From NCBI GenBank assembly GCA_963402885.1, contig OY727098.1, forward strand, positions 27,690,417 through 27,754,416: 64,000 nucleotides of DNA, written 5' to 3'. The notes under the pieces are model-generated. The model made no database searches. It saw only the letters and a list, made by a program, of their open reading frames with translations, and had not been told where the DNA came from. Each line of letters opens with the position of its first letter. Within the stretch, counting starts at the first letter, position 1. Below are positions 3,762 through 62,035 of the stretch, piece by piece. A program made the translations under genes and the position numbers. Source of the DNA: Antedon bifida (taxonomy: Eukaryota > Echinodermata > Crinoidea > Comatulida > Antedonidae).

Positions 3762-4010
3762 TCAAAATGACCGCAATTGTACCGGGAAAGTAGTTTTGAC
3801 AACAAAAGTGTGATGTGCCCAAATATGGTAGTGATATGATATCATCATGTCCATATATGGGCAAATCACATTTTGTTTGTCACATAAAGTTTGATACAGT
3901 ACAGTTTCGTTCCTCCCACTGATGCCAGTCGCATCCAAGAGGCAGTCTTCTCTAGCATCCAAATATATGCTGGGTCCGACTGTTGAAGGGCTTTCTTGAC
4001 TGGGTTAGCT
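3762..4010. repeat. Degraded MITE copy next to an inverted dispersed repeat
   Basis: Positions ~3785-3900 match the body of the TA-flanked MITE family seen intact at 6107-6247, but the terminal inverted repeats are lost. Directly adjoining, ~3890-4010 is the reverse complement of ~10915-11035 (shared words GGACCCAGCATAT and CTCTTGGATGC). The coding-like frame through it is not a complete gene. Confidence 0.6.
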
Positions 4011-31737: not shown

Positions 31738-33369
31738 TATGACTGAAGCAAATTTAACAACTAAACGTAGAATTTAAAATCATTAAAAATAATCACAACA
31801 ACATGTGTTTTCTTCTTGGTTATTCTCGCGTGTGCGGTGTGCGAGAGAGTGCGAGGTATATTCTACGGAGCGCCATTTATGCCTTTTACTTCCGAAATAG
31901 AAATAGTACTACGGTAACTCTGGTTCAGTGGACCAAATTTAGCACCAGTGGAGCACATAACAGTGACTGATATAAAATAGAAATAAGTCACTAATTTTAA
32001 TATCTTTTCGTATGTTAATACACTGTGCTCAAGTGGACCCAATTTGGAGCAAGTGAGGAGCACAGTGATATAAATAGAAACAAGTCATTGAATGTTAATA
32101 TCTTTTCGTATTTTAATACACTGTGCTCAAGTGGACCCAATTTGGCGTCAGTGGAGCACAGTGATATAAAATATAAAGAAGTCACTGAATGTTAACATCT
32201 TTTCGTATTTTAATACACTGTACTTAAGTGGACCCAATTTGGCGCCAGTGGAGCACATATAAAATAGAAATAAGTCACTGAATGTTAATATCTTTTCGTA
32301 TGTTAATACACTGTGCTCAAGTGGACCCAACTTGGAGCCAGTGGAGCACAGTGATATAAAATAGAAATAAGTCACTGAATTTTATTATCTTTTCGTATAA
32401 GCATATTTGAATACCTACCGGTATGGTACCATACATGTTCGACAATACAGAATAAATATATAAATATGTTTTAAGCAGATCTTTGAAATTGAAGCATATG
32501 AAGTCAAGTTTTTTAAAACCCAACCTAAAATTCGCATCTGGATAGTTGAAATTTAACATTATAATTATCAAATGTGATAATTGTAATTGTTTTCTAAATT
32601 ATAGAAATATTAAAATTAGTAAGTAGGCTTTTGTGTGCTAGCTCTGTTTGTATTTCATAATTTTGTTTTGTTGAATTACCGTCACGGCCGCGTGCATTGC
32701 ATGTCTCACACTTGGAAACAATCACCATTGTATGGCTGGTCCTGAAGACTTATATATTTCGTTTCATAATTTCCGGGGAATAAGCTTTCATTCTTAGCTC
32801 TGCCCCAACCATGGTGAGCTTAACTGGAGACTTAATATTTAATTTCATATTTCAATAAATATTTTTTTCAAAATTGTCTTTGCTCAGCCCCAATCACGGT
32901 GGGGTAGTGAAGACTCTTATATATCATGTTTCAAAATACTATAGGTGTCATTTCTGGGCACCTTGTAGTTGTTTTAAACAGTTTGGTATGCCGTGCGTTG
33001 TTATGCAAATGAGTTTGTGCAGGTGTAATGGGGAAGATGGCATTGTTAGTCATTCGCGGTGAACACGCCACAAAATTAAATTTAAAAGTTAAATTTTGAT
33101 TTTGCTAATCTTTATTAGAAATTCAAATCATGTAAAGATAAAATTTTCCGGGCGGGAACCTAGAAGCTCCCCTCCTTTAGTTTGCAAAAGTAATCTTGAA
33201 AAGAACCCCATGCGGAAAAGAAGCTTACCCGTTGAAAAGAAGCCTGCCGTACCCAAGAGTACTAAAAAATGAGGAACACATGGGCTCTTTTTGGGGTTTT
33301 ATCATGGTGTCTATTTAATGGAAAAGTGAATGCCATACATAATAATAAAAAAAAAAACAATATTCATAA

Positions 33370-36736: not shown

Positions 36737-39700
36737 TTACAACTTTACAATTGGTATTTCAAAGCAGAGTTTTAATCCTGTTCCCTGCATTCGTTCATGG
36801 TACACTCTGTCGTACTCTTCGTTCTGCGTAACAGTAAAATAGTTCTTCCAGTCACCTACCTCACCTGTGGAAAAGATGTAAATAATGATAAAATTAAAAG
36901 ACGACGGAGGAGGATTGATGTTATGCCGGTTTTTACGGTAAAGTAGATTACTGTCGTCATAGCATGCGTCTTTATAGCTTGGTTAATTCACACTAGGACG
37001 CAACACAAGGTTGACGTACGCGCAACGCAAGTGATTTGGCCAATCACAAGGAATGGATCACTCGTCATTGGTCAACTCGCTTACATTGCGCCTACATCAT
37101 TGCGTTGCGTTTTAGCAAGAAAATGGCGTACCTCAGCGCAAGTAATTTGACAAATCAGAAACTAGATGATTGATAATTGTGCGTGTACGTTCTTGTGTTT
37201 ATTCCTCCTCCTTCTAGTAGGAACCAATTTAACAATTAATCATTGCAAACCTTTTCTAATAAATGATGTTTTACTATAAATCTTATGATCAAACACTGGC
37301 AGCCATGTCCCGATGATGTTGGAAAGTGCGTCATCTTTCATGCTTGAAAACGACGAGTGTTTCACAACCTCGTCAATAGCTTCGTCTGACAGATTGTAAC
37401 CTAGGAAGTCTGCCATCTGAATAACCGTACTTCTTGGATCCTATAAACATGATTATTAACGACATGTTTGGAGTTATAATTTGCTTCGTCTTTGTCGCAA
37501 CAGATATTACTCGGTATGTGTATGTATTTTTAATGAGATGCAAATACATCAAATCAAATCACAAACATGATCATAGTTGTCATCCTCTCATATCCTCCGC
37601 CATCGCATCTATCGTATATTTTATTTTTATTTTATTAATTTGGCAAACACATTTAAACAAACAAACAAGCAGATAAAAATTAGCTAGATTGCGCAATGAG
37701 TGGCAAAAAGGCAACAGCTTCTGTCGCCGATTAGGCGTGTCACTCTAACAAAAAGGCTAAAACGTACAGAAATGAATGAATGAATTTATGATAAAATCAT
37801 AATGTATATATAATTGGTTTTTCTAACTCAATAATAATATTGATAAGTCACTCACCATTTTTACATCCTCATATTTAAAGAAAAGAATGTTTGATAAATG
37901 ACGTCGTTTCCACCAAAACAAATTGTGATCAAACCAAGATCCATAAATAACTGTTGAAATACACATTTATTTCATTTATTCAACTTGAGAGAGACAGAAG
38001 TTGAGAAGTTTTTGTGGCCCGGGTCTTTTTTTTAGGTATCTGGTTTCGTAACACCACCGTGGTAAATCAAGTTTATCGGCCGGCCTCCGGAGAATATCCG
38101 ATACTATAAAGCGTAAGATAGTTCTCTGACGATGATTTCTTCATGACAATTAGTATAAGGCCTAAATGTCACCAGGGATAATTGAACAATAATGGTAAGG
38201 AAAGAAATTACAATGTCATTCTCTCGAACTATGATTTTGAAATCCTTAGAGCTATAAGGATTGAAAAAATAGATGATATATTATTAGGCGAAATATTTCC
38301 ATAATCCCGTCAAACTGTATGCTTACCTTCGTTTCGAACAAAATCCTGATAGAATTGATTCCATTGCGTATATCTAGGTAAAACCACGTTATAGTTGTGG
38401 AAATGGAAGTAAGATACGGCCACGTCCTTTGGATTCCTCGATATGTAGATTACCTGACGAAACAAATATCATGAGTAAATCGGTTAGATATCCAATCGAC
38501 ATTAAACAGGCCAACGGAATGTTAAGAGAGATTTCGACTACTGTATACTATTAAGAAAATGTTTAAATTACATGTACGGTATTTAAAGGGGACTTTCACG
38601 AAGTAGCGCTACATTAAATGGTTTTTCCCACTCGAAATCGAACCCCACTTTCTTACGATAAATCGACGTAATCGTAACACAACTGGAATTGTTACGTCGA
38701 CTGGAAACCAGCATTAAGAAAAGGACGTACGTCAGCGCAAGTAATTTCACCAATCAGAAACTAGATTCGGATAATGAATAAAATGTTTAAATTACATGTA
38801 CGGTATTTAAAGCGGACTTTCACGAAGTAGCGCTACCTTAAATGTTGGTTTCCACTTGCAACGCAACGACGTAAGCGAATCACCGAAAGTAATTAGACCA
38901 ATCACGATACAATGGATTATCGCTTTACATTTGGTCAACTCACTGCGTTGCGTTCAAGTTCGAACCAATATTAATTCGAAGTGATATCTTCATGCCTACT
39001 AAAATACTACATGCAAGCATGCTTTAAAAAGTAAGAAATAAGAGGTACAACAAATTAGACAAACTAGGTGATGGATGATGTTGTTAGAATTAATGTATCT
39101 TTTAAGAATTCTACGAGGCATAGCAAACGTATTTATTTTTTACCTTTGCCCTATTTTCAAACAGTTGCCGAGGTAAGTGCTTATCTGGAAGATGCGTTTT
39201 AATAATACGCGGTGAAGGTGCGTCCTGTAGTTGATGATGACGAAATGGTGTAGTGGACTTCTCAAACTATAGATGTCAAAAAACAGATAATGTTTAGCTT
39301 ATAAGCTCTGTCTACACTATCAAACATTATGTGACAACAAAATGCGATGTGCCCATATATGGACATGATGATGTCATATCACTCATGAGACGAGTGCTTC
39401 TAGTGCGTGCCCCAGTTATTATTGTTATAACTGAATAAATATGCATAAATGAATGACTATTTGGCCATATCACTTCCATATTTGGGCACATCACATTTTT
39501 TTTGGTCAAACTAGTTTGATAGTGTAGACAGAGCTTTAAGCTAGGCCTGGTTAAGATCAGATGCACAACATTGTTTATTCATTTTCTTTTAAAGTTTTTG
39601 TGTATTTATTTCCAAAATACCTCCCGAATGAGTTGCCATATAAAAAATATAGGCCTACAAGATGTTTACAATTATAATTTACAGTACGTACATGCGAGTA

Positions 39701-40236: not shown

Positions 40237-41396
40237 TCCGTCAATATAAACGGCGTAATCCGGTGTAAATTAGAGGTTAAACAGTGTTATTGTTATTTAG
40301 AATGTGCTTGTTGATCAATGTCTGAAAAGTACGCCGCAGATATACCAGGGTATTTTATACCTCCCTGGATAGACTCTATAAATACTATAGTCCTTGAACT
40401 AGGCTGAACCATGTAAATAAAACATTGTACAACATAGGCTACAAATAGTAGAGCAGTTAATGACATGAGCTGTGCATTTTATTACCAAAGCATGAAACTT
40501 GGCACAAAGTTTCTATAATGTATATAGATTCAAAATATCGGGGGGTGCCAAGTGTCCAACGTCCGGTATGGCGGCCATCTTGATTTCAAAATGGCCACCA
40601 TAAAAACAAAAAATGTTCATATCTTGGCAACTATACACATTAGAGACTTAATTCTGGTTTCAGATTGTTCACAAACTATATATTTCTATTTGCTCTAATG
40701 AAAATTTTCGTCCAAAAATGACCGGAAATAACGTTTCTTTCAGTTTGACCTTTGACCTCGTATTTGTATATCTCTGTAACTACTGGTCATTTTCAATCGA
40801 TTTTGGTGTCATTTTGTTCAGAATAAATACATTTATATTTGTAGTAATGAAACATTTTCACATAAAATGACCGGAAATACAATTTATGACCTTTGACATT
40901 TAATTATTGATTTTTAATTATGTGAATATACTGTATGTGGTTTTTGGTGGTCTTAAATGCACCTAATTTTGAACTTTGACCTGATAGGCGTAATTATATT
41001 AAATGATTAATGGACTTAAATTGTATATAGTACATAACATTGGTAAACATTGTGCTTGGTGGTACCATTAGTTCAATGATGTTGGCACCTTCTGATTCGC
41101 TAAAAGTTTTAATAGTTTGACAGAGGAAATAACATACATGTTATGGAATACCGTAAAACCTCGAAAAGGTGATAGTATGAGCTTCTTTTCGAGATAGACT
41201 GTATTTGAATGTCAAATGAATAGTATGATGATCATGTTTGTATCAATATATTATTAAATGACCTTACAAAGAACCCTTTATATTTCAACAATCAAGCCTC
41301 AGTTATTCTACAATTTATTGTTTTCCAAGTGGTAGGCCTATTTTGATTGCATCTTCTTTTTGTAGGCCTATGCTTCCTCGGTAATATGGTCCTACC

Positions 41397-42805
41397 CCTC
41401 CTTCTTTGTCTGTAGATGGTCTTATACCCCATTCTTTGTCTGTGGATGGTCTTATACCCACCTTCTTTGTCTGTGGATAGTCTTATACTCGCTTCTTTGT
41501 CTGTGGATGGTCTTATACCCGCTTCTTTGTCTGTGGATGGTCTTATACCCCCCCCCCCCCACTTCTTTGTCTGTGGATGGTCTTACACCCCTTTCTTTGT
41601 ATGTAGATGGTCTTACACGCCTTCTTTGTCTGTGGATGGTCCTACACTCCCTTCTTTGTATGTGGATGGTCCTACACCCACTTCTTTGTCTGTGGATAGT
41701 CCTACACCCCCTTCTTTGTCTGTGGATGGTCTTATACCCCCTTCTTTGTCTGTGGATGGTCTTATACCCCCTTTCTTTGTCTGTTGATGGTATTACACCC
41801 CTTTCTTTGTGTGTGGATGGTCGTATACCCCTTCTTTGTCTGTGGATGGTCTTACACCTCCTTCTTTCTCTGTGGATGGTCTTATACCCCCTTCTTTGTC
41901 TGTGGATGGTCTTATACCCCATTCTTTGTCTGTGGATGGTCTTATACCCACCTTCTTTGTCTGTGGATAGTCTTATACTCGCTTCTTTGTCTGTGGATGG
42001 TCTTATACCCGCTTCTTTGTCTGTGGATGGTCTTATACCCCCCCTTCTTTGTCTGTGGATGGTCTTACACCCCTTTCTTTGTATGTAGATGGTCTTACAC
42101 ACCTTCTTTGTCTGTGGATGGTCCTACACTCCCTTCTTTGTATGTGGATGGTCCTACACCCCCTTCTTTGTCTGTGGATAGTCCTACACCCCCTTCTTTG
42201 TCTGTGGATGGTCTTATACCCCCTTCTTTGTCTGTGGACGGACTTATACCCCCTTTTTTGTCTGTTGATGGTATTAAACCCCTTTCTTTGTCTGTTGATG
42301 GTATTACACCCCTTTCTTTGTGTGTGGATGGTCGTATACCCCTTCTTTGTCTGTGGATGGTCTTACACCTCCTTCTTTCTCTGTGGATGGTCTTATACCC
42401 CCTTCTTTGTTTGTGGATGGTCTTATACCCCCTTCTTTGTCTGTAGATGGTCTTATAATCCCTTCTTTGTGTGTGGATGGTCTTACACCCCCTTCTTTGT
42501 CTGTGGGTGGTCTTACATCCCCTTCTTTGTCTGTGGATTGTCCAACACCCTCTTCTTTGTCTGTGGATGGTCTTATACCCCCTTCTTTGTCTGTGGATGG
42601 TCTTATACCCCCTTCTTTGTCTGTAGATGGTCTTATAATCCCTTCTTTGTCTGTGGATGGTCTTACACCCCTTCTTTGTCTGTGGATAGTCTTATACCCC
42701 CTTCTTTGTCTGTGGATGGTCTTATACCCCCTTCTTTGTCTGTGGATGGTCTTATATCCCCTTCTTTGTCTGTGGATGGTCTTACATCCCCTTCTTTGTC
42801 TGGAC
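41397..42805. repeat. 30-bp minisatellite, ~47 copies with higher-order structure
   Basis: Unit CTTCTTTGTCTGTGGATGG followed by TCTTATACCCC, 30 bp with occasional length changes. Variant blocks recur at a higher-order spacing of ~490-510 bp (for example the GTCTTATACTCGC variant near 41480 and 41970, the TCGTATACCCC variant near 41822 and 42332). Because 30 is a multiple of three, long open frames run through it in several frames on both strands; none is treated as a gene. Confidence 0.95.
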
Positions 42806-44562: not shown

Positions 44563-46668
44563 TTATTGATTGATTGATTTTATTTGATATTCATACATAA
44601 AAGTTAAAATATACAATGTATAAAAAGAATACCTGGATAACCCATTAAGTCGACAAAAAAGTAAACTTATTTCCAATGGGGTCCAATCCGTAATGACTGA
44701 AAAGTGAGTGGTTGGGCCTAGTACAATTATCGTTAAGTATGACTCAGTAAAAATGAAAAAACAAGAAAATACATACAAGACAAGAAAACATCAAAAAAAC
44801 AATATTAAAAATAGCTTAATTAAACTGAAATACCAAGCTGTTCATTATTAAAATATTCTTTAAGTTTTATTTTGAAGGTTGCATTATTTTGTATTGATTT
44901 GAGTGAATTGGGGAGCCTGTTCCAGTCACGGATACCTAAGAAATAAAAAGTCGTATCATTAACGCCAGTAGCCTTAGGAGTGACAAAATTAAATGTTGTA
45001 CCCCTGGTGAAATGGTTGTGATGATCAGAAATTAACAAAAAGTTATCCTTAAGGAAAGAAGGCGTATTAAAGTTATAACGAATTTTGTGAACATAATTTA
45101 ATCTTAAAAACTTATTTCTGAGGCTGACATTAAGAAACCCAAGATCGGAAAGCTCTTTGGCACCTATGTGAGACCTCGGACCAACATTTAAAATGAAACG
45201 TGCCATCTTGTTTTGGGCAGTTTGTAATTTATGTTTAAGATTCTTATTGACACCGCCGTACCATGCCGAGGCAGAATAGTCAAATGTACATTGTATTAAA
45301 GCAGTGCTTAATAGTTTACGACATTTTTTATTCAAGCACGAACTTTGCCTATGTAAAAACTTCAACCTTGACTTAACTTTACTGATAACACTAGTTGCAA
45401 TGATATCACATGATACATATTGGTCTAAATCAATACCTAAATATTTAACTTGCTTAGTACTTTTGATTCTACGGCCCATTAATTCTACAGAAAACTCTTT
45501 TACTTTGTTAAGCTTCGCTCTGCTACCAAAGATAATACTTTCGGTTTTGCCAACATGTAAAGATAATTTGTTTTCAGTTAACCAGTCCTGGCACTTAGCT
45601 AGGACAGTACTTAATTTATGAGCGATTTTGGTGGCATCGTGATGAGAATACAGAATCGTAGAATCATCAGCATAAAGCAATAATTGAACATCAGAATCAA
45701 TACAAGAAGCAATATCATTTAAATAACATAGAAAAAGAATAGGGCCCAAGATGCTACCTTGCGGTACACCATGAGTAACTATAAGAGGTTCAGAGCAGGT
45801 ACCATTCACACTGACAACTTGTGTGCGGTTAGCGAGATAAGATTGAAACCAGTCAGTACACTTAAAACCCATGCATTTTAGCTTGTTAATTAAAATCACA
45901 TGATCGACGGTATCGAAAGCTTTTTGTAAGTCAATTAGAACCATTCCAGTAAGAAGGCCTTTGGACTTATTGTTTTTTAAACCGTCGATGAGATTTATGA
46001 GGTTGCTTTCAGTTGAATGGGCCTGCCGAAAACCGGATTGATAGGCATAAAGTATATTATTTTTGGAAAGATACCTTTCAACTTGTATAGCTACAGATTT
46101 TTCAAGAATCTTAGATACCGTAGGCAGAATACTAATCGGCCGATAATTCTCAACATTTGTTCTAGTATTTTTCTTAAATAGAGGGGTAACTTTAGCAATT
46201 TTAAGATCATGAGGAAAACAATTAGTTTTAAACGAAAGGTTAATGATATGAGCTATCGGTTCAGCCAAGATTATCGCACCGTCACGTAAGAATCTTGAGG
46301 GAATATTATCTAGACCGACGCTTTTGTTTACATTTAGGCTTTCGAGTTGAGTTTTAACAAATTCTATGGTAACAGGCTCTAGCTTAAACATTTTTCCTTT
46401 TAATTTAACGTAGTATTTAAGAAGATCGTTAGTGGACATGGTGAAAAGACCTATGCATTTTGGGAGTTTTTTGACGAGTGTTGACGCAACATTCGTGAAA
46501 AACTCATTAAAACGAGAGGCAACGCCTTTTGGACAGAAAGTTTGTTTACCATTGTCATCGAGAACGATTTTAGTGTTTGTTTTACATTTCTTCTCGTATC
46601 CGAGCTGTTTGAGGGTTTTCCATAATTTTTTAGGGTTTTTTAGGGCCATCAAAATATCTCTCTTTCAA
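44563..46668 (-). mobile_element. 5'-truncated non-LTR retrotransposon
   Basis: The 3' end on the minus strand is an AATCAATCAATCAA tail at about 44565-44580, the short-repeat tail typical of Jockey/CR1/L2-group LINEs. The 5' end stops within ORF2 near 46668, so the endonuclease half and ORF1 are missing. The reading frame is still open, implying recent insertion. Confidence 0.85.
44820..46652 (-). CDS. LINE ORF2 reverse transcriptase, 610 aa, N-terminally truncated
   Basis: Encodes the reverse transcriptase of a non-LTR retrotransposon. Seen: ENYRPISILPTVSKILEK (168-185), LIDLQKAFDTVDH with the first catalytic Asp at 241, HGVPQGSILGP (294-304), the active-site YADD at 327-330, KYLGIDLD downstream, and the C-terminal domain with a SLRNKFLRLNYVHKIR block. 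The apurinic-like endonuclease domain that should precede it is absent, and in-frame sequence continues a few codons upstream of the first Met before the truncation point. Autonomous retrotransposition is not expected. Clade within Jockey/CR1/L2 is not resolved by eye. Confidence 0.9.
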   Translation of the reverse strand: MMALKNPKKLWKTLKQLGYEKKCKTNTKIVLDDNGKQTFCPKGVASRFNEFFTNVASTLVKKLPKCIGLFTMSTNDLLKYYVKLKGKMFKLEPVTIEFVKTQLESLNVNKSVGLDNIPSRFLRDGAIILAEPIAHIINLSFKTNCFPHDLKIAKVTPLFKKNTRTNVENYRPISILPTVSKILEKSVAIQVERYLSKNNILYAYQSGFRQAHSTESNLINLIDGLKNNKSKGLLTGMVLIDLQKAFDTVDHVILINKLKCMGFKCTDWFQSYLANRTQVVSVNGTCSEPLIVTHGVPQGSILGPILFLCYLNDIASCIDSDVQLLLYADDSTILYSHHDATKIAHKLSTVLAKCQDWLTENKLSLHVGKTESIIFGSRAKLNKVKEFSVELMGRRIKSTKQVKYLGIDLDQYVSCDIIATSVISKVKSRLKFLHRQSSCLNKKCRKLLSTALIQCTFDYSASAWYGGVNKNLKHKLQTAQNKMARFILNVGPRSHIGAKELSDLGFLNVSLRNKFLRLNYVHKIRYNFNTPSFLKDNFLLISDHHNHFTRGTTFNFVTPKATGVNDTTFYFLGIRDWNRLPNSLKSIQNNATFKIKLKEYFNNEQLGISV

Positions 46669-46819: not shown

Positions 46820-48235
46820 TGCCGATTGTGTCCGAGCATTTCTATTTTTTTCATATACATTTTTTCGATCTAATTTTTGGTCAACGTTAATAGTTATATC
46901 ACGTGGCATTAAAAAGGCATACGGTAGTCCTCAACAATTCAAAACTAAAAAATACCCCCAATTTTTTAAAGATTACTTTTTCAGGGTGATAACATAGGGT
47001 GGCCTATCGTTAAAAAATATAAATAAATAAATGTGACAACATAAATGAGTAACTATTAGTATTAAATGTGAAAAAACACCAAATTAAATATATTGGTAAT
47101 ATGGCGTAACGTATATGAAGTTATAAAAAAGTTTTAAGAGAGACTGAATTTAGAATAGGGGGTGTTATATTTGTCCACAAAGTGTGACGTATTACACCGC
47201 ACTGAAAGGCACTTTACTTCGTTGACGCGGCATAGATGGGCTGTCGTAGTTTATATAGATGGTTGGAATTTCCCCTTTTCTATTTTTAGTGTTTTTCGAC
47301 GACTTCTTTTTGGTCGGCGATCTTGTTGATTTGTAGGTGTCATTCGAGGTTGGTTTCTAGAAATAGTAAGCATTCACTTTTATTTCTCAACCCGGTTTAT
47401 GTTAGTTGACAGTATACAGTTATGTTTTTTATTTTAAAACTCTCTACGGTATTTCGATTTTTAGAACGTGATGATAGCTAGCCCCAAAAAATCAAGAACT
47501 AGTAGTAGTACTATGTGACACTTTAGTTAGAGAGGGCTCTAGCCTAGGCTAACTACAGACCGGGACCAACAGGGTATCCGTTTCCGGGTTGTGGTGAATG
47601 TACAGGTATATTTTAGCCCGAGAAACTCAAACGCCGCATTCAATGATTCATTTTAATCGTTGATGATTGATGTTAGTCCTCCTTTCTCTGAACATACATA
47701 CTCTAATTGCTTGGTAGGTCTAAATAAGATATAATAGGAACTAAAGTTAATTTTTTAATAACTAGGCCTAATTAATAATAGTTGTAATATTTAGAAAAAA
47801 CCAATATGACAGTAAAGTAAATTGTAAATATACATTTAATTATTAAGACAAATTTAGGCATAACGTTAATTTATTGTTTGCACATAAATAACAAACATAT
47901 CTTGTTTAACAAGATACAATTAAGCCAAAAAGTTTTAATTTTGGTTAAAACCTGTCCACTACGACATAGGCTGTGAGAACAAGTACAACATGGTAACTTC
48001 TTCATCTTGAAAGATAAGTTCTTTTATAAAGTGCAGACAAACATTTTGTGTACACAGAAAAACCGTTTTACCATTAGTTTCTAGAACCCACAGAGTGAGT
48101 AAGCCTGATAATTATGACATGGATTACTGTTCCACTTACGTTTTAACTGCTTGGACACTCACCCACACTCCCCCTCTCACTCATTCCCGAAACCTGTTTC
48201 TACTTATATTTTTGTATTTTCTAGATCTAGTGAAG
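46820..48235. promoter_or_regulatory. Upstream region of the DED-kinase gene
   Basis: No coding exon found. A polypyrimidine tract and TTTTCTAG lie 12 bp before the ATG at 48236, so the first coding exon may begin at a splice acceptor, with a 5' non-coding exon upstream (candidate GTAG|GTGTCA donor near 47336). AGGCCTAG-like words occur near 47530-47570. Confidence 0.4.
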
Positions 48236-51200
48236 ATGGCTGATTCTGCTTTTAACCAAGCTCTGGTTTGGTTGTCTGATAAAATATCAGAAGAGGAGCT
48301 TCCCTGCTTACAGTTTATTGCATCATCTATTCTCAAGAAAAACCACTTCGACAAGTCTACAACAGATATATTTAACCATTTGAAAACAAATAAGTTAATT
48401 GCAGAAAACAATTTTTCCATTCTGTACGACACGTTAGGATTCATGGGGCGCTTAGACTTACAAGTGGAATTCAGGAAAAAATTTGAGGGAAAAATACCAA
48501 AACAAAAATCACAAGAGATCTCCTCATTCACAAGAATGCTCATCGATGTTTGTAAACATGTGTCTGTGTCTTCTGGTGATTGGAAAAGTTTTCTGTTTTT
48601 ATACCGACAAGAAGAAGGAGGTGCTAGAATTGACAAAGGATGTGCATATGCCTGCCTACAATATCTTTTGGATAGAGATATTTTGAGAAATGACAAATTT
48701 ACTTTAAGTAAATTTAAAGGAGTTTTGGAAGGGTCTGGTCTTATACAATCCAAGAAATGTGTGGAGCAGTACTGTAAGTTCAATCTAGTATTGTAAAGTG
48801 GCTTTTATTGACATAAGTCTTGTAAATGTGAGTGTAATTTTCATCAATCACAAAACAAGATCCCATATTAACACAACTATAAAGTTATTTAAGGATGAGT
48901 AAAATACTTTTTAAAACTTGTCTGTGTGACACAGTCATTTTTTAGAGGATGCTATATCCATGAAAAAGAAATTTCTTGTGTGTGTCAAAAACTCTTCTTG
49001 CCTTCCACAATATGGAACCCTGTTAAATTCTCTTTGCCAAGAGGATGTGATTTCCACAGATCCCTTTACTATAGGCTACTATTAACCCATTATTATTCCC
49101 ATTATTATTCCCAATATTAGTGGGATTACAGAGTTTACTTTTTCTTTCACCTACCCAGTTGTTGGTATCAACTATCACACATATGTTTTCTTGATGATTA
49201 CCACAGTGTATATTTTATATTTTTTAGTAAAGGAGAATAAAACCCTTCCAGAAGAAATAAAAATCACACCAGAACGTTCGAGGTACAGTATTCTACTGTA
49301 GTTTCTACATAAATAAATATTTATATATTTTTGTTGCCCTATTTTGTGATTTATAAAGTGAGTTTTTTCTTTATACAATTACACCACCCTTTTCATTAGT
49401 AAATGTTAGCAAGTATGCTCATATTTTACCCTAATTATTTTACTAGAACAATTGATTGTTAAGAAAAGTTCTTACTAATCACTAATAATATCAATATTGA
49501 TAATAAATTCAGATTCAGATTAGATAAGAGTACAATCAAAGTCCAAACAGTCTGCAATGACATTTTGAAACCAGGAAGTAGACTGTAAAATGTTTTAATT
49601 TGATGTAAGAGCTTTCTCAAAGCTTATTTTGCAATTAACACTACTACATCACCTACTGGTACAATTTAATTTTTAAACTGTTCAAACCAAATAATACAGA
49701 TGCAAATGGTATAAATACCTTAGTGACGTTCTGATGCTGTCAGTTTCTTCAAACTACTATTTGGAATGGTCTGATAATAGTTTTTCTTCAAACAGTAGTT
49801 TGACAGAATGTCAACAAAACGTCTTTACAAACGTATTTATACCAATTATGTCTGTATTTTTTGGTTCAACAAAAAAGTAATAATTTTCCAGTTTATTATA
49901 TTCGGAACCAGATGAATTTATTTAATAATCTAATATTTAATTTTCTTTTCTGTAAAATATCAGCCCTATTGTTGCTGAAGCATTTGATGGACATGGTGAT
50001 GGATCTTCTGCAAACAATATTTCAGGTATTTAAATGTAAATACAAATAAGCATTATATGGTTGGGAAAAAAAAGGATTGATAGGATAGAGGTTATTCGCT
50101 TGAAGTGATTTGATTAGATTTGATTTTATTCGATTTCAACATAAGATTACAAGACAAAATGAATACAAACAATTTACAAGCAAATACATTAAATAAGAAA
50201 CCAAGGATAGCCCATAAAATCAAAAGAAAAGTCAACTTAATTCCAATTGGATCTTTAAAAACAGACAATCACAACAAACAGCATAAACATACAAATCAAA
50301 CAATAATATATGGCAGAAGATAAACAATATAAAAATTTAAAATGAGACAATAGCAATTGGATGACCTACAGCATGAACCTATAACCTAATAACTAAATTT
50401 CGCAGCAAAACTGTACTGCAACAAAAATTCTTCTTATGTAGAAACAAATTATTTAGAGAAGTAGAATGTATTTTGTTTTATTCAATATTCCATAATTTCC
50501 ATTGCAAAATATCGTAATACAATTAAAATTACTTAAATGAAATGTGCTATTCAGAGCCTGAAGTAGAGGTAGTGGGAAAAATTATTAATTTAATTGAAAA
50601 AAAAACACACAACCTACCTAACCTATCCTCAAATGATATGGATTGAAGATGAATGAATAAATGAATAAATGTGATTTTATATTTGTGTTTTTGTTTGTGA
50701 TTTTTAATTCATTTTCATCTCATGTTCATCTATATATTTCATCTAATTGTGAGTGAGTTGTGTGTGGATATGATACAAATCTTTTTAATTTCAGGATATA
50801 ACATTTCTGGGAACCATAATCTCATTCTGATTGATTCAACAAATCCAATTATCAGACAAGGTTACTTTTTAAAATAATTTTCTTTTATATACAATGTCTT
50901 GTTTTTTGTGTTATCAACAGAATTTCTCAAGATTTGTACTAGAAACTGATATAATTTTGCATTTAGAATGAAATACTGAATAAAGTACACAATACTTAAT
51001 TTTTAGCATTGGGTAACCAACCACATTCTGGTAAAAAGAACAGAACAAAGCAAGATACATTAATGAAGAACCAACAAACAATGGATTCTGAGGATAAAAT
51101 GAACCAACACCAAACATCAGTTCCTGAAGGCCGATCAATGCACCTCAAGCCAGAAATTGACGATCAAACTGACCAACAGGAACTGAGTGAAGAAAGAAAA

Positions 51201-54200
51201 CCCCGATACTCAATGGACCAAGCAACAGGCACAGACCCACAGTCGCCAATGCACAGACAGGAGGGAATAAAAGGTCAAATGTCGGAAACAGACAACCAAG
51301 ATAGTGGAATACAAAGGGATTTATCTATAGGTTTGTCATCAACGTTTTTAATCATCTTTTTTAAAGACTTGGTTTGAATAAAATTGAATGTGTTATTGTT
51401 TTTTTGTGTCTCTTTTTAGTTAGGTTGAGGAACCCAGTTAGACAAGGCTCACCGTCTAGTTGGGATCCTTTAGCTGTTCAATTAATATTTATCATTTGCT
51501 GTTATAAGTATGCCTAATGCATTAATTTTTTCTATTTTTTGTTTATACTTTCGTTATTCATTGAACAGTTGTAAATACAATAAATATCACATATGTCAAA
51601 TAATAAAGAATTTTAAAACTTTTTAGATTCATTTCCAAAACCATTGTCATCTTTAAATCAGCCTACTGACCTTAAACCTACACCACCAACAGCAGGTAAA
51701 TTCATTCTGTGATTATTTCATTTTTTTTCTAGTCATGATAATCATAATAATCAGCATAGTTGTCGTCGTCTCATAACTATATTTGTTAAAAATTAATAAA
51801 GTAAAATGAAAATGTATAGATAAATTTGTTTGATCTATGCTATATACCATATTATATTTTAGTATTTTTGATCAAAATTTTGAAAAAATGTTAACAATTG
51901 TTTCATTTGTATTATACCAACAAGAGCATTTGTGTGCAGACAAAAAGTGCTATCGTTTCAGTAAAGATGAAATAGCACAAATGAAGAGAGAGGAAAAGAA
52001 AATAGGAAAAGGTGGTTTTGGCACTGTCTATAAAGGTAATGTCTGGTGAATTAGAATTTCTTTATCTAAGAGACATTTTTGTTTGTTGTGGTAGGCCCTA
52101 TACTGTACGGCGTCAAGACGTCAAGTGTACAGTAGGTCTGTGACAAGACACACATATGGGTGAATATAAACATGAGTTTGTATAATGTTCCACAAGCTGT
52201 ATATATTTTGATTTTATTCAACAATCAGAGTCAAATATTCTTTTATTGTAATACTATTTATGTTTAAGATTGTAAAAAGTAATTAATAATGTTTACCTTT
52301 TTAGGACGTTTGATACTACCTTCTGGGCAAGAATCATTAGTAGCTATTAAAGAATACTCTGAAGATATAGCTAAATCTACAGGACAAGGGGACAAACAAT
52401 TTGAAAAAGTATGACAAAAATTATAATTTTAAGAGGAAGTTAGGCTGCAAGATGAATCTAGTTTAACATAAAAGTCTCCCTGATAATGGGAGAATTATAA
52501 GGAAAATAAGGGTTTCGATTTTTATTACAGAATTTTATTAAATTTCCAACAAACACAGCAAAAAATGACACAAACTAAATTTAGTTCTAATCTAATTTTG
52601 ATTAATTCTAATAGGAATTAGATGCTGTGAATATATCAAAGCATTGTTTTGCAGTGACAGTTATCGGGTACTGTCTTGATGGAGAGTAAGTAATTTGCAT
52701 TAAGTATTTTTAAAACATGCTCTTTCAAGAGTAATACATTATTTTAACATATTTTCTATTAATTTTCATTATTTTGAAAAGTTTATCAAAAATGTTAAGT
52801 TTTTCAATGAATGTTTCTACACACAGTTGTTTTTCTTTCTTTAGATACAAAGCACTTGTTTACCCATATATGGAGAAAGGCGATTTAAAAAATCTCATTG
52901 ATAATTGTGACCCTGCCTTGACATGGCAGGTCAGACTTCGTATTCTACATCAGATTTCGCGTGCTATGTGTCATTTTCACAATTCTTTCAAAAAAAGAAA
53001 TGGGTAAGTATACAGCCAAGTCTCCCAATACCGGACACCTTTGTCTGGTTTTTAGAATGAGTTTTTAATGGTAGAAATTAATTTGGGACCTTTTGAACCC
53101 CTGGAAAGTCTGTTTTTGGAAGAGTTTCTGGTTTTTAGAGAGTCCGGTATTGGGAGATTTGACTGTACTGTCACAAAAGAAAACATCATTTAGTGAATTG
53201 TTGATATGTCTAAAGTCTTCCACTCATTTGCTAAAAATTGAATTATACTAATGGTTGAAGTTTTAAATGTATGTATTTTTATATTTATATATTTGCAGCC
53301 AAGATGTTATACATGGAGATATAAAAGATGATAATATATTTGTTGACAACAATTTTAATGCTTTCTTGGGAGATTTTGGTGTAGCAGAAGAGATAGCAGA
53401 AGAGCATACACACATTACAAGAATACAGAATGCATCTGCTCTTGGTTACAAAGACCCAGACAATATTGGGCATTTTACTCGATTATCTGATATCTTTCAG
53501 TTTGGAGTTTGTAAGTTTTAAAGACACCTTCCCTACGTTTTTTAGATCTATTCTAAGATCACAAACTATATTTAATGTAAAAATAATACTATATGGTCCT
53601 ATTGCGATAACTTTTTTCGTCTTTAAATGGTTAAAAATGTGAAAAATAAGTCGATTCTAATAATTATAGCGGCACGCTATAAATCCCAAAATGCATTGCG
53701 CGCGGATTGATATTTCTGTTTTTCTTCTGTAATTCACCCACTTTTCAATCGATCGTGAGGCCAAAACAAATGGAAGACTCCTAACTTTTCAGCGAAAATA
53801 TCGGGTTTTCCCCAATTTGTATCAACGGAGTCTGGCAAAAATAGAAAGACAATTAATGCAGCAACTATACAACGTTAGGCTAGGTATATAGCTAGCGTAC
53901 GATGTTCGTACGTTACCGATGTTTACCAGCTAGGCCTACAAAACTAAGCCTAGCTAGGCTAGGCCTAAAGACGTCCACGAGAGGTCAGTCGCCGCGAGCT
54001 ACTTAGGTAGTGCATTGTTTCTCACTTTTTATCATAATTTACCATAAAACGTACATTTAAGACAAGGAATGACCTGGTTTAATGTTTTTAAAGTAATATA
54101 TATGTATTATTTTTACAAAACGTCACAAATTGTAGGGAAGGTGTCTTTAAATTGTAATATTTATTTTAAAATGTATTTTTCGCCAAAATCATGAAAAATG

Positions 54201-56024
54201 AAGATGAATAAAATCGGAATTTGAATAAATCTTTTTGCAGTTTTAATAAAGTTATTCACTTCCATAGAAAAAAAACCCGAAAAAATATAATATAATATAT
54301 ATAATGTATATAACACAACAGGCAAAGAACATTAATTCTAAGTTGCACAGTGATATACTGGAATTTAATTAATTTTTTTTATTCAATTTTTGGTCAAAGT
54401 GAATAATATTGTGTTGCATTAAAATGGCCAATAAAAAAAGTCAACCGGAACACAGACTGCCGACCTGTAATACAACTAAAGGTATAAATAAAATTGAATT
54501 TGTCACGTTGACAAATTATAGGTGATTTTTATGATTGAACACATTTTTTGATATTTCTGATCCAAAACCTTTAACATGACAAGGTAATGACAATTCTCAA
54601 GCAGAATATTGATTTCTTAATCTGAGTGAATAATACTGATAATAGGCCTGTATGTATTTTGTTGCAGTAATGTTTCGCTGCCTTACAAGTAAACCTGCCA
54701 AGAAAGATGGAAAACGTGCAGAATGTGAATCTTTAGCACCAGCGAAGGAGAGATATTTACCAGATTGCTGTGAAGATCTTTGTCAAGGCATTGATAAAGT
54801 ATGTATAATTTCTGAGGAATAACCAATTTTAAAGACAAAGTTAACATTTTATTTATTTTATTGAACCATGTGTTAACGCAATGAAAATAAACTACTAAGC
54901 TTTTTTGGCTATCCAGGAAAATCTTCTCTAGAAAATATATTTCTCTGTATGTCAGTAGTTAATGTTATCACTTTTGTATGTATAATGATTTATCTTATAA
55001 ATTCAAATTCATATCTAAGAAATACTGACATTGGCCAATTTCAAATTCAGATTCAGATCTGGTAGATTATTTATTAACTTATGAAAAGAACTTAAGAAAG
55101 AGAGTATTCTTCTATTTGTCTACATACCAGTGTATAAATATATACAATTGGCCTTGTTTGTTTTTTAAGAACATCTGGGAAGAGAAATGTGATATGGCAA
55201 ACGAGCTTGCAAGATTTGTGGTTAATGAATGTTTGGTCAGTTCAGAGACGGGAAGAAAGAGATGCTCCTTTAAAGATATATTTATAATGATAGATGTAAG
55301 TGAGAAAACTATAACTTAATTAAGTCAGTTTTAAATTTATTGGGGAAGTAATAAGTATACTAGATAAGTATAGCTTGTTAGAAAAATATTTGGACTGTGC
55401 GTATGTTACCAGAAGAACAAATCTTTAAATGTCTACATAAAATAAATATAGTTTCAGATTTGATGAGGTGGAAAAGCTAAATGTGTCAAAATCTGTCATG
55501 CAAAAACGTCATTAAAAGAATTTTGCACAGTGACTTCAGATAAATTGCCTTTGTTATTAAAGACATTCAATTTATAAACGTCTTATTGCTGTAAGAAAGA
55601 CAATGTGACTTTTAGTGACCTTTAATGTGCACTGTATTTTGGCTTTAAGTGTCACTTTTTCCTCATTCAACTTATAACATGAGGTTACTATCATGCTGTA
55701 GTTTCTGTAATGTTTTGGTTCTCTTCAGAAACACATGAAGGAAGAGGACATTCTACCATTTGCAAACACTGATGATACCTTGTGCATTTGCTGCCGAATA
55801 CAGAAACCCATTGATCGTGAGTTATTTTGTTTGTTATATTTTTATGTGTTCATCTTGTAACATTTCACAATTAGATCCTTGTTCTTGATCAAGCAGGATA
55901 GTTTGAGCTGAACTCTTTCTTTTTAAAATTTTTAGTTGACCCTAAATGTGGTTGCAACTTCAGATGTCCAGATTGTATACGGAACAGTAGTCTGTCTTGC
56001 CCGTGTACACCAGAAAACCAGTAG
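48236..56024 (+). CDS. DED-DED-protein kinase-RING-like protein (15 coding exons, 729 aa)
   Basis: Exons: 48236-48773, 49228-49282, 49964-50025, 50795-50860, 51007-51330, 51627-51695, 51940-52035, 52305-52408, 52615-52685, 52845-53003, 53299-53510, 54668-54798, 55170-55295, 55729-55816, 55936-56024; 2190 nt, every junction GT/AG and in phase. Seen: residues 3-82 form a death-effector-type domain with RLDL at 72-75 in the helix-6 position; ~97-178 is a second, weaker one. 180-370 is a polar Gln/Ser/Thr-rich linker. The kinase spans ~385-665: glycine loop IGKGGFGTVYKG (393-404), VAIK Lys419, HGDIKDDN (520-527; non-RD, Gly in place of Arg), GDFG (539-542). The tail 690-724 is Cys-rich: C690, C693, C705, C707, C711, C714, C722, C724. 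Death folds recruit partners by homotypic contact; non-RD kinases include IRAK and RIPK types. Likely an innate immune or death signalling kinase (inference). The start at MADSAF is chosen over an upstream in-frame ATG (48095) because an acceptor lies between them. Confidence 0.88.
50115..50420 (-). mobile_element. LINE 3'-tail copy
   Basis: GATTTGATTAGATTTGATTT run, then 'gcccataaaatcaaaagaaaagtcaacttaattccaattgg', arranged like the 3' UTR of the LINE at 44.57-44.72 kb ('cccattaagtcgacaaaaaagtaaacttatttccaatgg'). It lies in intron 3 of the DED-kinase gene. Confidence 0.5.
53013..53165. mobile_element. Complete pogo-like MITE, TA-flanked
   Basis: TIRs CAGCCAAGTCTCCCAATACC and its near-complement GGTATTGGGAGATTTGACTG, with TA at each edge (53011-53012, 53166-53167). 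It is 153 bp and starts 9 bp after the donor of DED-kinase exon 10. Confidence 0.85.
53522..54146. mobile_element. 625-bp TTAA-flanked element with terminal inverted repeats
   Basis: TIR AGACACCTTCCCTAC at left, complement at right, each preceded or followed by TTAA (53518-53521, 54147-54150). TTAA duplication points to a piggyBac- or Kolobok-type transposase acting in trans. It carries an AGGCCTAG-rich block (~53930-53970) and GTACG-rich dyads. It starts 11 bp after the exon-11 donor. Confidence 0.8.
54890..55000 (+). repeat. Dispersed repeat, partner of 12050-12165
   Basis: TTTTGGCTATCCAGGAAAATC and following words match the reverse complement of the FZR1-intron copy. Probably a LINE 3'-tail fragment in the opposite orientation. 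Confidence 0.5.
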
Positions 56025-56229
56025 AAACTCCATGACAGAACTGATTTGGACCAATTAAACCCTGCAACACCCTTGTTCAAATTGGGTATTTTTTGGATTT
56101 TTTTGTAAATATATTTAAGTATTATTGAATGTTCTCCTAAAGCCAGTTTTGCAAGAAATTGGCTTCCAATTGGAATTAAAAATGGTGTAGAAAATATTCT
56201 ACTATTTCACTTTCATTCATTCATACACA

Positions 56230-57060
56230 TTCAGTTATAAAAATAATAACTGGGGCCCATGCTAGAAGCAAAAGCTTGTCTCATGGAGGGCCCTACAATA
56301 CAAATATGTATAATACAGGTACATGAAAAGAAATAAAACAATAAACAATAAAATAAGTAAAAAAAGATAAAATATTGAGCATAACAAAAGTTGCTAATGC
56401 TAGTGTTTTACAGATTGTTTGAAAGTATAAAAAGTTTTATTTTAACAGGGAGATCATTCCTTAGTTTAGGTCTGGCTATTGGAAAAAATTGATTTCTAGT
56501 TAATCTTGTAAACGGATCATATAAACGTGTTGTTTTTCAAATTATATTCATTACTTAAATTACTTTTTGATAACATTCCAAGCATACAATGAGGTTTATT
56601 ATTAATAAATTTAAACATAGAAATAGCAATTGAACCTTATAAAGATCATTTAAACTAAGCATATTAAGTTGTTTAAATAAAGGTTTGGATGGGGTTCGGT
56701 AATGGAAAAAGGTAATGATTCTAGCAATACGTTTTTGTAACAAAATAAGTGTATCAATATTAGATTTATAATCAGCTGCCCAGATAATATTGCAATATTG
56801 GAAATGAGGAAGAATAAGTGTATTATAAAGAGATAGTAAAATAAATTCCAAAAAAAAAAGTTTAATTCGATTTATAATACCATAGATTTAGATATCTTTT
56901 TAGATGACTGGTCCATTGCAAATGTTCCTGGATGTAAACCCCTAAAAAGGTGATTGCATGTTTACGTTCAATTATTCATTCATCATTTAGAGACACTTTG
57001 AGTTCATCAATCTGCAATTTATGCTTGGGAGTGTGGATAAACATGTTATAAACAATCATT
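56230..57060 (-). pseudogene. LINE ORF2 C-terminal fragment and 3' UTR
   Basis: Minus strand: HTPKHKLQIDELKVSLNDE, a stop, then ITFLGVYIQEHLQWTSH, a frame change, then LYNTLILPHFQYCNIIW and LLQKRIARIITF to about 56555. This is the typical C-terminal block of L2/CR1-type LINEs. Inserted in the 3' flank of the DED-kinase gene; the related flank at 58.5-60 kb lacks it. Confidence 0.8.
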
Positions 57061-57741
57061 GAATACCAATCAGGCTGCTTTGTCAATTTGATTTGATATA
57101 AAGTACAATTATATTTGACTTTTTTTTGTATTTGTACATCTTAAGTATTATATCACTGTCACTGTGCTTAATTGCCTACAATTAATTTCTAAATTGTTGA
57201 CTAACTGCTATTAGTGTTGCATTTATTATATATTCCCATAAATATTGAAAATATAGCCACTTATACTTAAATATTGATCTTTACACTGAGCCCATATAGT
57301 ACTTAAGGTATACTTTTTAAAATAACAGTACATTCTTAAGATTAATGCAATTGGTTGGCAACAGTGGAATAAATGAATTCTCAATGATTTGTTTTATTTT
57401 CTGAAATTTTAATAAAGGTACGATTTTAGAATTTCAAATGTAGTTAAAAAAGGACTTTACATGTTTTGATACAATTACTAGTACTGTGTTTTTAATGTGA
57501 GTAATCAAACCATGATGCAATGTTGCTGAGTTTGATACCTTGAATATATTATGAAATATAATTTAATTTTATATAATGTATCATGATATATTTTCTGTGA
57601 AATTAATAATAAATTGTTAAGTCATGAAGCTTATGTGTGACTATGTTTCTTGTCCTATTCGATGGGACTTTACCGTTGAGTACAGTTGTTTCTTCTTTGG
57701 GTACATATTTAGCATAGTATTTTGAACTTTGAGATTGTTAA

Positions 57742-57859
57742 AGATGTAGGCCTATTGTCCCCCAAAAACATGAAAAATGAAGACTATTATATGAAAATAA
57801 AATGGCATATTCAACAACAAACATTTTAAAAATTGTTTTTTCAGGGGGACAATACATCT
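57742..57859. mobile_element. 118-bp TTAA-flanked mini-element
   Basis: Ends AGATGTAGGCCTATTGTCCC and GGGGACAATACATCT are inverted, the left copy carrying a four-base GGCC insertion, with TTAA on both sides. It differs from the 53.5-kb element in TIR sequence. Confidence 0.7.
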
Positions 57860-57969
57860 TTAACGTTTGAGCACAATCGGCCGTTTACAAGTTATCATTT
57901 TAATACACTATACTCAACAAAACTTTGTTTGATCGATTACGAAAGTTCCCAATCGAATACGACAATTTC

Positions 57970-58080
57970 TAACTCAATAATCTATATAGTGCTCAAGTGA
58001 ATCCAATTTGGCGCCAGCGGAGAACAGTGATATAAAATACAAATAAAGTCACTGAATTTTAATATCTTTTTGTATGTTAA
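57970..58080. repeat. Single unit of the 31.9-36.0 kb element's arm repeat
   Basis: CTCAAGTGAATCCAATTTGGC, GATATAAAATACAAATAAAG and GTCACTGAATTTTAATATC match one ~100-bp arm unit. This shows the unit also occurs outside the large element. Confidence 0.7.
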
Positions 58081-58484
58081 AACTACGGAAGCTTAAAGTG
58101 ACCGTCAATTTCCACGATTCCAACACTACTTATCTTGTAACACGGAATAAAGCAGAGATTAAGACTAGCTTTCAGAATAGAATTCCGTCTTGTCAAGATA
58201 ATTTACGTCTTTCCACGATAATTATCTTGGAAAAGACGGAATTCCATGATAAATTCGGATAAGACAAAATTTCAAGACAGCTTTTCTTGGAAAAACACAT
58301 GACAAATTGCCATCCAATTTTTCCGTAGATTACGAATCTGGAAGGTAATCGATGAGGATAGGAAGCATTTTCGAGATATAAGGGTCAAAGTTCAAAATTG
58401 ACCAATTCCAACAATGTGTTCTTGCAGCTCTAATTAAAAAGTTTGGTATGAGGTTCGAACCCAATACTAGAGAGAGCAAGTACA

Positions 58485-60110
58485 AGTACAATTCAGGAAA
58501 CGCAAGAGATCTCCTCATTCACAAGAATGCTCATCGATGTTTGTAAACACGTGTCCGTGTCTTCTGATGAATGGCAAAGTCCATGTACAGCTGAAAAACC
58601 AGTAGAAACTCCATGATGGAACTGATGTTCAAATTGGGTATTTTTTTGTAAATATAAGTATACTTAAAGTGCTCACTCAGTATTCTTTGTAAATATAAGT
58701 ATACTTAAAATGCCCACTCAGTATTCTCCCAAACGGTGGCTCCCAACTGGATTTTAAAATGGTGTAAGATAATAGAACTATTCTACTTCATGTTATAAAG
58801 ATTAAATACCAATCAGCTTTGTCAATTTGATTGATAGAGTGCAATATATTTGAGTCTTTTTGTACTGTACATCTTAAATAACTGTACTTATTGTCTAAAT
58901 TGGGGAAATGCTGCTTGTATTTATATCTGAAAATATATAAAATAGATCACTATTGAAGAGCTTATTATTTGTGACAAATACTTCAGACTATATAAGAAGT
59001 AAATGTTGTATATCATGAAGTGTATTTCACCATATAATATACTAGTGTAAGTAAAGTTAGTAAATGTACTCGGTAAAATATCATCTTACAAAAATCAATG
59101 AAAAGAATCGAATAAAGATTATTGGACAGATCTTGATCTAAATATAAAATAGATTGTACAAATCACATTTTAATTAATTCCTTCAATCAAGATCTATGTA
59201 CTCTTTGTGAAGACCTCTAATTAAGGTTATTTTTAAACAATCAAGGTTCCATACTAGAATTGGATTTAATGGGCCAATGGCCAAATGATTAAAGTAAGGC
59301 TGTGTTTCCGCTAAAATGTGTTATCGATAAAATTTAATCGGTACTTAACCGATAAAGTTCATGTGGAAACAGTTTAACCGATAATTATCTCATTGAAATT
59401 TAACAGATAATTATCTCATTCAAATTTAACAGATAATTATCTCATTCAAATTTAACAGATAATTATCTCATTCAAATTTAACAGATAATTATCTCATTTA
59501 AATTTAACAGATAATTATCTCATTCAAATAGATAGTTTATACAATAAATAAAAATACATTTTAACCTTTGACATGAAGGACAATTGTTGCTGTAATTGAT
59601 CATGAACATTTGACTTTTATTAATTATCTGATTGATTAAAAGATTAACCAATAATGTTTTTATGACTTTAGAAACAAAGATTGATATATACAGTAATGTT
59701 GATTTTTACAGCCCAAGTTTATATAGTACTTAATACATTTTTAAACAGTACAGTACGTTTTTAAAAATACAACAGTCGAATGAATGTATTTTTAATGATA
59801 TGTTTTATTTGCTAAATTGTTAATGAAAATAGAATTTTAGAATTTCAAATATATAGTAAGGACTTTACATGTTTTGATACAGAGTACAAATATTTATGTG
59901 TTTTTAATGTGGGTACTAATTCAAACCAGGTTCCATGCAATCATGTTGAGTTCTGTTTAAAATCATTGATATATATACTTTGAATAAATTGTATCATGAT
60001 ACATTTTCTATGAAATTGATAATAAATTCATTAATTCATGGAGGTATTAAACCTCCATGATTAATTCGTGAAGCTGATGTGTGACTAATTTATTTTCTTT
60101 ATTCATTTAT
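58485..60110 (+). pseudogene. Collapsed partial duplicate of the DED-kinase gene and its 3' flank
   Basis: ~58503-58577 matches exon 1 (48510-48585, second DED) at about 90%; it then jumps directly into the last exon (AGAAACTCCATGATGGAACTG) and the 3' flank, continuing with weaker similarity to 56040-57640 as far as ~60110. Exons 2-14 are missing. The joins are within exons, not at splice sites, and unspliced flank is included, so this is a genomic duplication with internal deletion, not a retrocopy. It lacks the LINE found at 56230-57060. Confidence 0.75.
59385..59530. repeat. ~26-bp tandem repeat
   Basis: Six copies of AATTTAACAGATAATTATCTC-type units, each with an internal GATAATTATC palindrome. 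It lies inside the duplicated flank but not in the parental one. Confidence 0.9.
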
Positions 60111-60429
60111 ATTGCAATTTTGTATGAAAGTTCCCAATTGAATATGACAATTGGTAACTCAATAATCTATATAATGGTCTAAAGTATTTTTAAAGAGAAC
60201 AGTACTCAAAAATTATTAGTGGTGCAATTACTAGAAAATCATCCTCCTCCAGTACGTATTGTTCAGACATCCATGTGTGAACCATTTGAACCAGGACATT
60301 TGTCTAAATGAAAAAAAAGTCATAAGAACAATGTATGGACATTTTATCGGTAATTATATCACACAAAAGAAATAATACAGTTTTATTTAGATCTAAAAAT
60401 AAATTCACGTGTGACGTATGTACTGTCTT

Positions 60430-61767: not shown

Positions 61768-62035
61768 GCAATGAAAGGAAACACATAAAATGTGTGTTTG
61801 TTCATTTTGCATTCATAATGGTACAGGTAACTATAAAGCTCTGTCTACACTATCAAACTTTATGTGACAAAAAAAATGTGATGTGCCCATGTATATGGAC
61901 ATGATGATGTCATATCACTACCATATTTGGGCACACCTCAATGAAAGGGAACACACATACTGTAACAAAAAGAAAATGTGTGTTTGTTCATTTTTTATCA
62001 TTCATAATGGTACAGGTAATAACAACTATAAAACA
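61768..62035. repeat. Local duplication carrying a truncated MITE
   Basis: The ~70-97-bp segment AATGAAAGGAAACACA...GGTACAGGTAA occurs at ~61770-61830 and ~61940-62020. Between them is the left part of the TA-flanked MITE (61836-~61937), broken off after TTTGGGCAC. Duplication and truncation probably happened together. Confidence 0.65.

Follow-up and report, generated by a model that had tools for sequence, protein, structure and literature searches.

A candidate death-effector-domain kinase with a cysteine-rich tail, predicted from a 15-exon gene model

The stretch of DNA analyzed here (64,000 nucleotides of contig OY727098.1, referred to below as the window) contains at 48236-56024, on the forward strand, a 15-exon chain which we rebuilt from the sequence and which encodes exactly 729 residues with a single terminal stop. 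The predicted protein has the domain order death-effector domain (DED), caspase-8-like tandem segment, long polar linker, kinase resembling receptor-like kinases (RLKs) and IRAKs, and Cys-rich tail. The exons of the model are as follows.

Exon 1, 48236..48773, +, start codon ATG, DED1 (residues 6-76, RLDL at 72-75) and DED2-like region (residues ~93-178, F121/L122 patch); donor GTAAGT
Exon 2, 49228..49282, +, linker; 7.6% of nulls have a codon score as high
Exon 3, 49964..50025, +, linker; 0.4% of nulls have a codon score as high
Exon 4, 50795..50860, +, linker, YNISGNHNLILID; phase 1-1; without a Pfam match; 42% of nulls have a codon score as high
Exon 5, 51007..51330, +, polar linker; phase 1-1; none of 255 nulls has a codon score as high
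Exon 6, 51627..51695, +, linker; phase 1-1; 12% of nulls have a codon score as high
Exon 7, 51940..52035, +, start of the kinase; glycine loop GKGGFG (394-399)
Exon 8, 52305..52408, +, Lys419 of VAIK
Exon 9, 52615..52685, +, alpha-C Glu439
Exon 10, 52845..53003, +, hinge LVYPYM
Exon 11, 53299..53510, +, HGDIKDDN (520-527), DFG (540-542) and DPD in place of APE
Exon 12, 54668..54798, +, kinase C-lobe
Exon 13, 55170..55295, +, end of the kinase C-lobe
Exon 14, 55729..55816, +, RING-like tail, first Cys group (C690, C692, C693)
Exon 15, 55936..56024, +, remaining Cys (705, 707, 711, 714, 722, 724) and stop

All 14 introns of the model are bounded by GT..AG, the GC content of the exons is 0.374 vs. 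0.281 for the introns, and within the exons it falls from 0.464 to 0.356 to 0.301 over codon positions 1, 2, and 3. Stops account for 7.5% of codons within intron sequence, and an open chain of 729 codons is thus unlikely to be accidental, though the exons were picked for openness. The hexamer GTAAGT, of which there are 21 in the whole window, occurs five times on the forward strand of 48236-56024 and is a model donor each time, once for exon 1 (at 48774) and four times for exons of the kinase. It had been argued in the original prediction, which was made from the sequence alone, that since all 15 exons splice in phase the fusion could not be an artefact of neighbouring genes. The in-phase chain and its GT-AG introns were recovered, but the phases were chosen to fit and two genes are not thereby excluded. 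Each of exons 4 to 7 has a symmetric phase (1-1), meaning that linker exons 4-6 could be skipped or shuffled with the frame kept.

The first DED (residues 6-76) was identified by Pfam PF01335 at 40.0 bits, above its cut-off of 35.9 (E 4.8e-10). RLDL at 72-75 corresponds to the RxDL part of the E/D-RxDL charge motif and is found in DED1 only, the pattern [RK]xD[LI] recurring in the protein just once, at 473, inside the kinase. The 93-residue DED2 piece, when searched by itself, had no match to PF01335, no match in the PDB and no fold match from structure prediction. Its identity emerged from alignment of the pair, as residues 6-136 match the tandem-DED prodomain of caspase-8 in a single alignment (phmmer, E 9.4e-7) with a domain score of 31.8 bits, compared with 18.7 bits over residues 6-80 for DED1 searched alone. 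The whole-sequence scores are closer (32.1 vs. 30.1 bits), since the second DED of caspase-8 is matched by DED1 alone as well. Consistent with the tandem alignment, DED2 scored 50 against the DED2 piece of caspase-8, a value reached in 0 of 2000 shuffles (mean 24.1, standard deviation 4.6), while its score against the caspase-8 DED1 piece, to which it is not similar, was reached in 835 of 2000; nor did the similarity of DED1 to DED2 within the protein rise above chance (240 of 2000 shuffles). In addition, F121/L122 aligns to the F122/L123 contact motif of caspase-8, and the double change of that motif is reported to abolish self-filamentation, with FADD still able to bind and seed short filaments (PMC11074299). 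The first six structural matches of a low-confidence single-sequence model of residues 1-179 were caspase-8/cFLIP, FADD, and MC159; a PADLOC search of the same residues returned no match. The proposal of two N-terminal death-effector-type domains held firmly for DED1, by Pfam and RLDL, and less so for DED2, which Pfam misses when it is searched alone and which is reached through the tandem alignment. On the death fold proposed for residues 1-180, the low-confidence model and the DED2 piece on its own point in different directions.

The proposed full kinase domain was confirmed unambiguously by Pfam PF07714 (E 7.4e-29). Among the best 60 of 1184 PDB matches, the nearest were plant RLKs (FERONIA, 1e-28), followed by IRAK4 (6e-23), the nearest kinase named as animal, and further on by IRAK1 (1e-17), an EGFR chain (5e-17), and MET (8e-15). 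RIPK1, 2, or 3 were not named among these 60, one of which (8ho6) carries the name “ScRIPK kinase protein.” When the catalytic-loop segment was searched alone, 14 PDB matches were obtained at E 1e-9 or better, mostly plant RLKs, and none of the 14 was named IRAK. By its nearest PDB matches we describe the kinase as RLK/IRAK-like and do not claim membership of the IRAKs, as the death domain is absent.

The chain ends five residues past the last of nine Cys within 690-724. Eight of these (690, 693, 705, 707, 711, 714, 722, and 724) have the spacing C-x2-C-x11-C-x1-C-x3-C-x2-C-x7-C-x1-C, close to that of the cIAP1 RING (C-x2-C-x11-C-x1-H-x3-C-x2-C-x6-C-x2-C), with which 7 of 36 residues coincide without gaps. 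A loose RING pattern in which Cys is allowed at position 4 and the last gap is 1-2 was reached in 3 of 20000 shuffles of residues 684-729 and in 22 of 20000 of residues 630-729, although this pattern was composed after the tail had been seen and its rarity is flattered accordingly. The tail had no RING match in Pfam or the PDB, and it misses the IAP-type ligand set in having Cys rather than His at position 4 and in the offset of its seventh ligand by one. It is plausible from the Cys spacing that the tail is a diverged, all-Cys descendant of a RING. Of the RING-like C-terminus originally proposed, the Cys richness was retained, but neither database nor ligand set supported a RING. For the proposed DED-DED-kinase-RING-like chain as a whole, the DED-DED-kinase order stands on one in-phase chain in which a single exon encodes both DEDs, whereas the tail as a working RING, and the ubiquitylation suggested for it, were not established.

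Whether one gene or two underlies the chain depends on the linker. For scoring its exons in the chained frame, exons 1 and 7-15 served to train a codon model, and stop-free stretches from window positions 1-40000 served as nulls (255 stretches for exon 5 and 500 each for exons 2, 3, 4, and 6). Exons 3 (0.4% of 500 nulls) and 5 (0 of 255) scored as coding. In leave-one-out controls on six kinase exons, with 300 nulls each, the share of nulls that reached the score of the exon stayed below 4% for five and was 26% for the sixth. Exons 2, 4, and 6 were indistinguishable from chance open stretches by the same codon model (7.6, 42, and 12% of nulls, respectively), which counts against a single continuous gene. 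They likewise count in favor of two adjoining genes, a short FLIP-like tandem-DED gene consisting of exon 1 and a gene for the kinase that begins within the linker, in which case the joined model would be a construct of the reader. Such an arrangement would also accommodate the following unspliced form of exon 1, and AATAAA signals at 49236 and 49256, a little downstream of that exon.

Alternative reading, exon 1 unspliced, 48236..48796, +, predicted complete 186-residue tandem-DED-only protein

AATAAA/ATTAAA signals are however frequent locally (38 on the forward strand within 48001-58000), the GTAAGT that closes exon 1 is a perfect donor of the kind otherwise confined at this locus to the kinase exons, and the coding scores of exons 3 and 5 in the chained frame are contrary to two genes, as is the shared orientation of exon-1 and exon-15 sequence in a decayed copy downstream (see below). 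We regard the two-gene arrangement as improbable, and we infer splicing across the linker, i.e., that the chain is a single transcript.

The unspliced form of exon 1 could also be a second product of that single gene. An in-frame stop codon at 48794, 20 nt past the exon 1 donor, would keep the tandem DED intact in a retained-intron form, so that intron-1 retention would yield a tandem-DED-only inhibitor beside the full DED-kinase, in the manner of the short FLIP forms; in FLIP and procaspase-10G, short forms made by splicing retain DEDs only (PMC4558505). An early in-frame stop is nevertheless expected by chance after any first exon in an AT-rich intron with 7.5% stop codons. We consider two products, which would be compatible with a single DED-kinase gene, to be quite improbable.

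Downstream of the gene lies the copy mentioned above.

Decayed tandem copy, 58503..58646, +, a piece of exon 1 (48512-48589) followed directly by the last part of exon 15 with 3′ flank (56001-56045, 56074-56094)

Positions 58503-58580 are a 93.6% copy of 48512-48589 in exon 1 and are followed without a gap by a copy (87%) of 56001-56045, which covers the end of exon 15 and the first 3′ flank. Collinear matches to the 3′ flank, 72-100% identical, continue to 57938-57994, which corresponds to 60123-60179. The region 58503-60179 looks like a tandem duplicate that is missing its middle. In it, sequences from exons 1 and 15 share one duplicated unit and one orientation, which is no proof of a single transcript.

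This collapsed paralogue next to the gene raises the question of whether the gene itself is being lost, with the kinase a decaying or inactive pseudokinase scaffold in a lineage-specific gene following the path of its neighbor. The altered ligands in the RING-like tail would fit with decay, and the kinase has HGD in place of HRD (Arg to Gly) and DPD in place of APE, both of which favor a pseudokinase. HGD is also carried by IRAK1 and Pelle, which tells against inactivity. Moreover, the catalytic residues are present (GKGGFG, K419, E439, D522, N527, and D540-F-G), the retention of the Lys, Asp, Asn, and DFG being contrary to a pseudokinase, and the 729 codons have no internal stop where introns have 7.5% stops, contrary to decay. 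Inactivity or loss of this kind seems to us unlikely.

The predicted protein shares features with several known systems without coinciding with any. Like caspase-8/-10 and FLIP it has an N-terminal tandem DED, alignable over residues 6-136, with RLDL in DED1 and an F-L patch in DED2. It differs from them in having a protein kinase and no caspase among the four Pfam families found over all 729 residues, in lacking RxDL in DED2, and in having both DEDs on one exon. IRAKs have the order death-fold domain, linker, kinase, and this order is found here, as is the proximity to IRAK4 noted above; in contrast to IRAK/Pelle, the death-fold part is a DED pair and not a single death domain (Pfam finds DED and no Death domain), there is a Cys-rich tail, and the TRAF6-binding motif PxExx[FYWDE] is absent from this protein. 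With RIPK1, RIPK2, and RIPK3 the similarity is that a kinase is coupled to a death-fold or assembly module for cell-death signaling, but the order is reversed, since the kinase is N-terminal in RIPK1-4 (PMC11507063). Similarity to the RINGs of cIAP1 and cIAP2 is limited to the IAP-type Cys spacing; the Cys replacing the His ligand, the seventh ligand off by one, the missing Pfam/PDB match, and the end five residues after the last Cys set the tail apart. Kinase-RING and kinase-U-box chains do exist (P0045 with PF13920; P0003 and P0037 with PF04564).

As a separate observation, exon 4 (50795-50860) encodes YNISGNHNLILIDSTN, which appears amyloid- or RHIM-like by eye and has no database support. 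A RHIM in this exon (YNISGNHNLILID), suggested by the amyloid-type look, stays an unsupported lead: RHIM had no Pfam match in the 729 residues, nor in the 51-residue exon-4 piece searched alone to E 10, and the core motif [IV]Q[IVLC]G of what is a short and divergent element was not found.

Our searches for relatives required shared exact words, and distant orthologues may be missed by them; on these terms residues 1-200 gave 558 candidates with none at E 0.001, and residues 500-600 gave 95 candidates with none at E 0.001. For residues 376-729, 57 of 1499 candidates reached E 0.001. Those with names were mostly plant RLKs, one was a fish RIPK with CARD (P0046), and none of the 57 carried PF01335 in its Pfam annotation. 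Ten NCBIfam models all scored far under their own cut-offs, and there was no Rfam match at gathering scores in 40000-64000. A DED-kinase was not named in the passages covered by a search of open-licence PMC literature, which takes in neither subscription journals nor domain-architecture databases, and this domain order may already be on record there. In Trichoplax, one kinase carrying a death-like domain is reported (PMC6321704). The DED-kinase would add one more instance to a known invertebrate habit.

Taking the evidence together, we consider it probable that the locus is one gene for an intracellular death-fold kinase in which recruitment through the DEDs clusters and activates the kinase, as in the IRAKs and RIPKs. 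Judging from what is known of the family, the tandem DED would dock on DED adaptors or co-assemble with DED proteases of the FADD/caspase-8 type. Clustering would then bring kinase domains together so that they could phosphorylate each other and downstream targets, a proximity activation modelled on the death-domain assemblies of IRAK4/Pelle and RIPK1. The tail may be a zinc-binding module of IAP-RING ancestry, which may or may not still act as an E3 ligase, and by binding zinc it may tune stability.

A more elaborate version of this mechanism would be a self-contained death-signaling kinase-ligase, in which a caspase-8-derived tandem DED enters FADD-type filaments, this assembly is where both the IRAK-like kinase and a modified all-Cys RING do their work, and a tandem-DED-only splice form serves as a brake. 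We view it as doubtful, yet if true it would unite in one chain what vertebrates split among caspase-8/FLIP, RIPK1, and the cIAPs.

The DED-kinase would in itself give the caspase-8 assembly platform a direct link to phosphorylation. No RIPK1 or RIPK3 was found in one study of the sea cucumber Holothuria leucospilota, which left the feed into necroptosis open (PMC11507063), and in Apostichopus japonicus a RIPK3 was named but no interaction with MLKL was reported to be detected (PMC11932488). Provided that the host is an echinoderm, the DED-kinase would be a testable candidate for the missing RIPK1/RIPK3 input to necroptosis.

Upstream of the gene, on the reverse strand, 44820-46664 holds a 614-residue stop-to-stop open reading frame with a reverse transcriptase match (RVT_1, E 3e-36), probably a long interspersed nuclear element. 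A 30-bp minisatellite of 46.9 copies occupies 41386-42802, with several frames open on both strands. Two 147-bp satellite arrays (22334-23462, 7.7 copies, and 25117-26238, 7.6 copies) lie ~1.65 kb apart, and their consensus units look by eye like mutual reverse complements; they could be arms of a large inverted element. Downstream of the gene, 57989-58083 is a copy of a repeat unit also present in a 97-bp array at 31968-32398 and near 35000 and 35900, and 61834-61935 is a short dispersed repeat with matches at 3814-3896, 6151-6249, 13771-13869, 20615-20677, and 39303-39383, among others.

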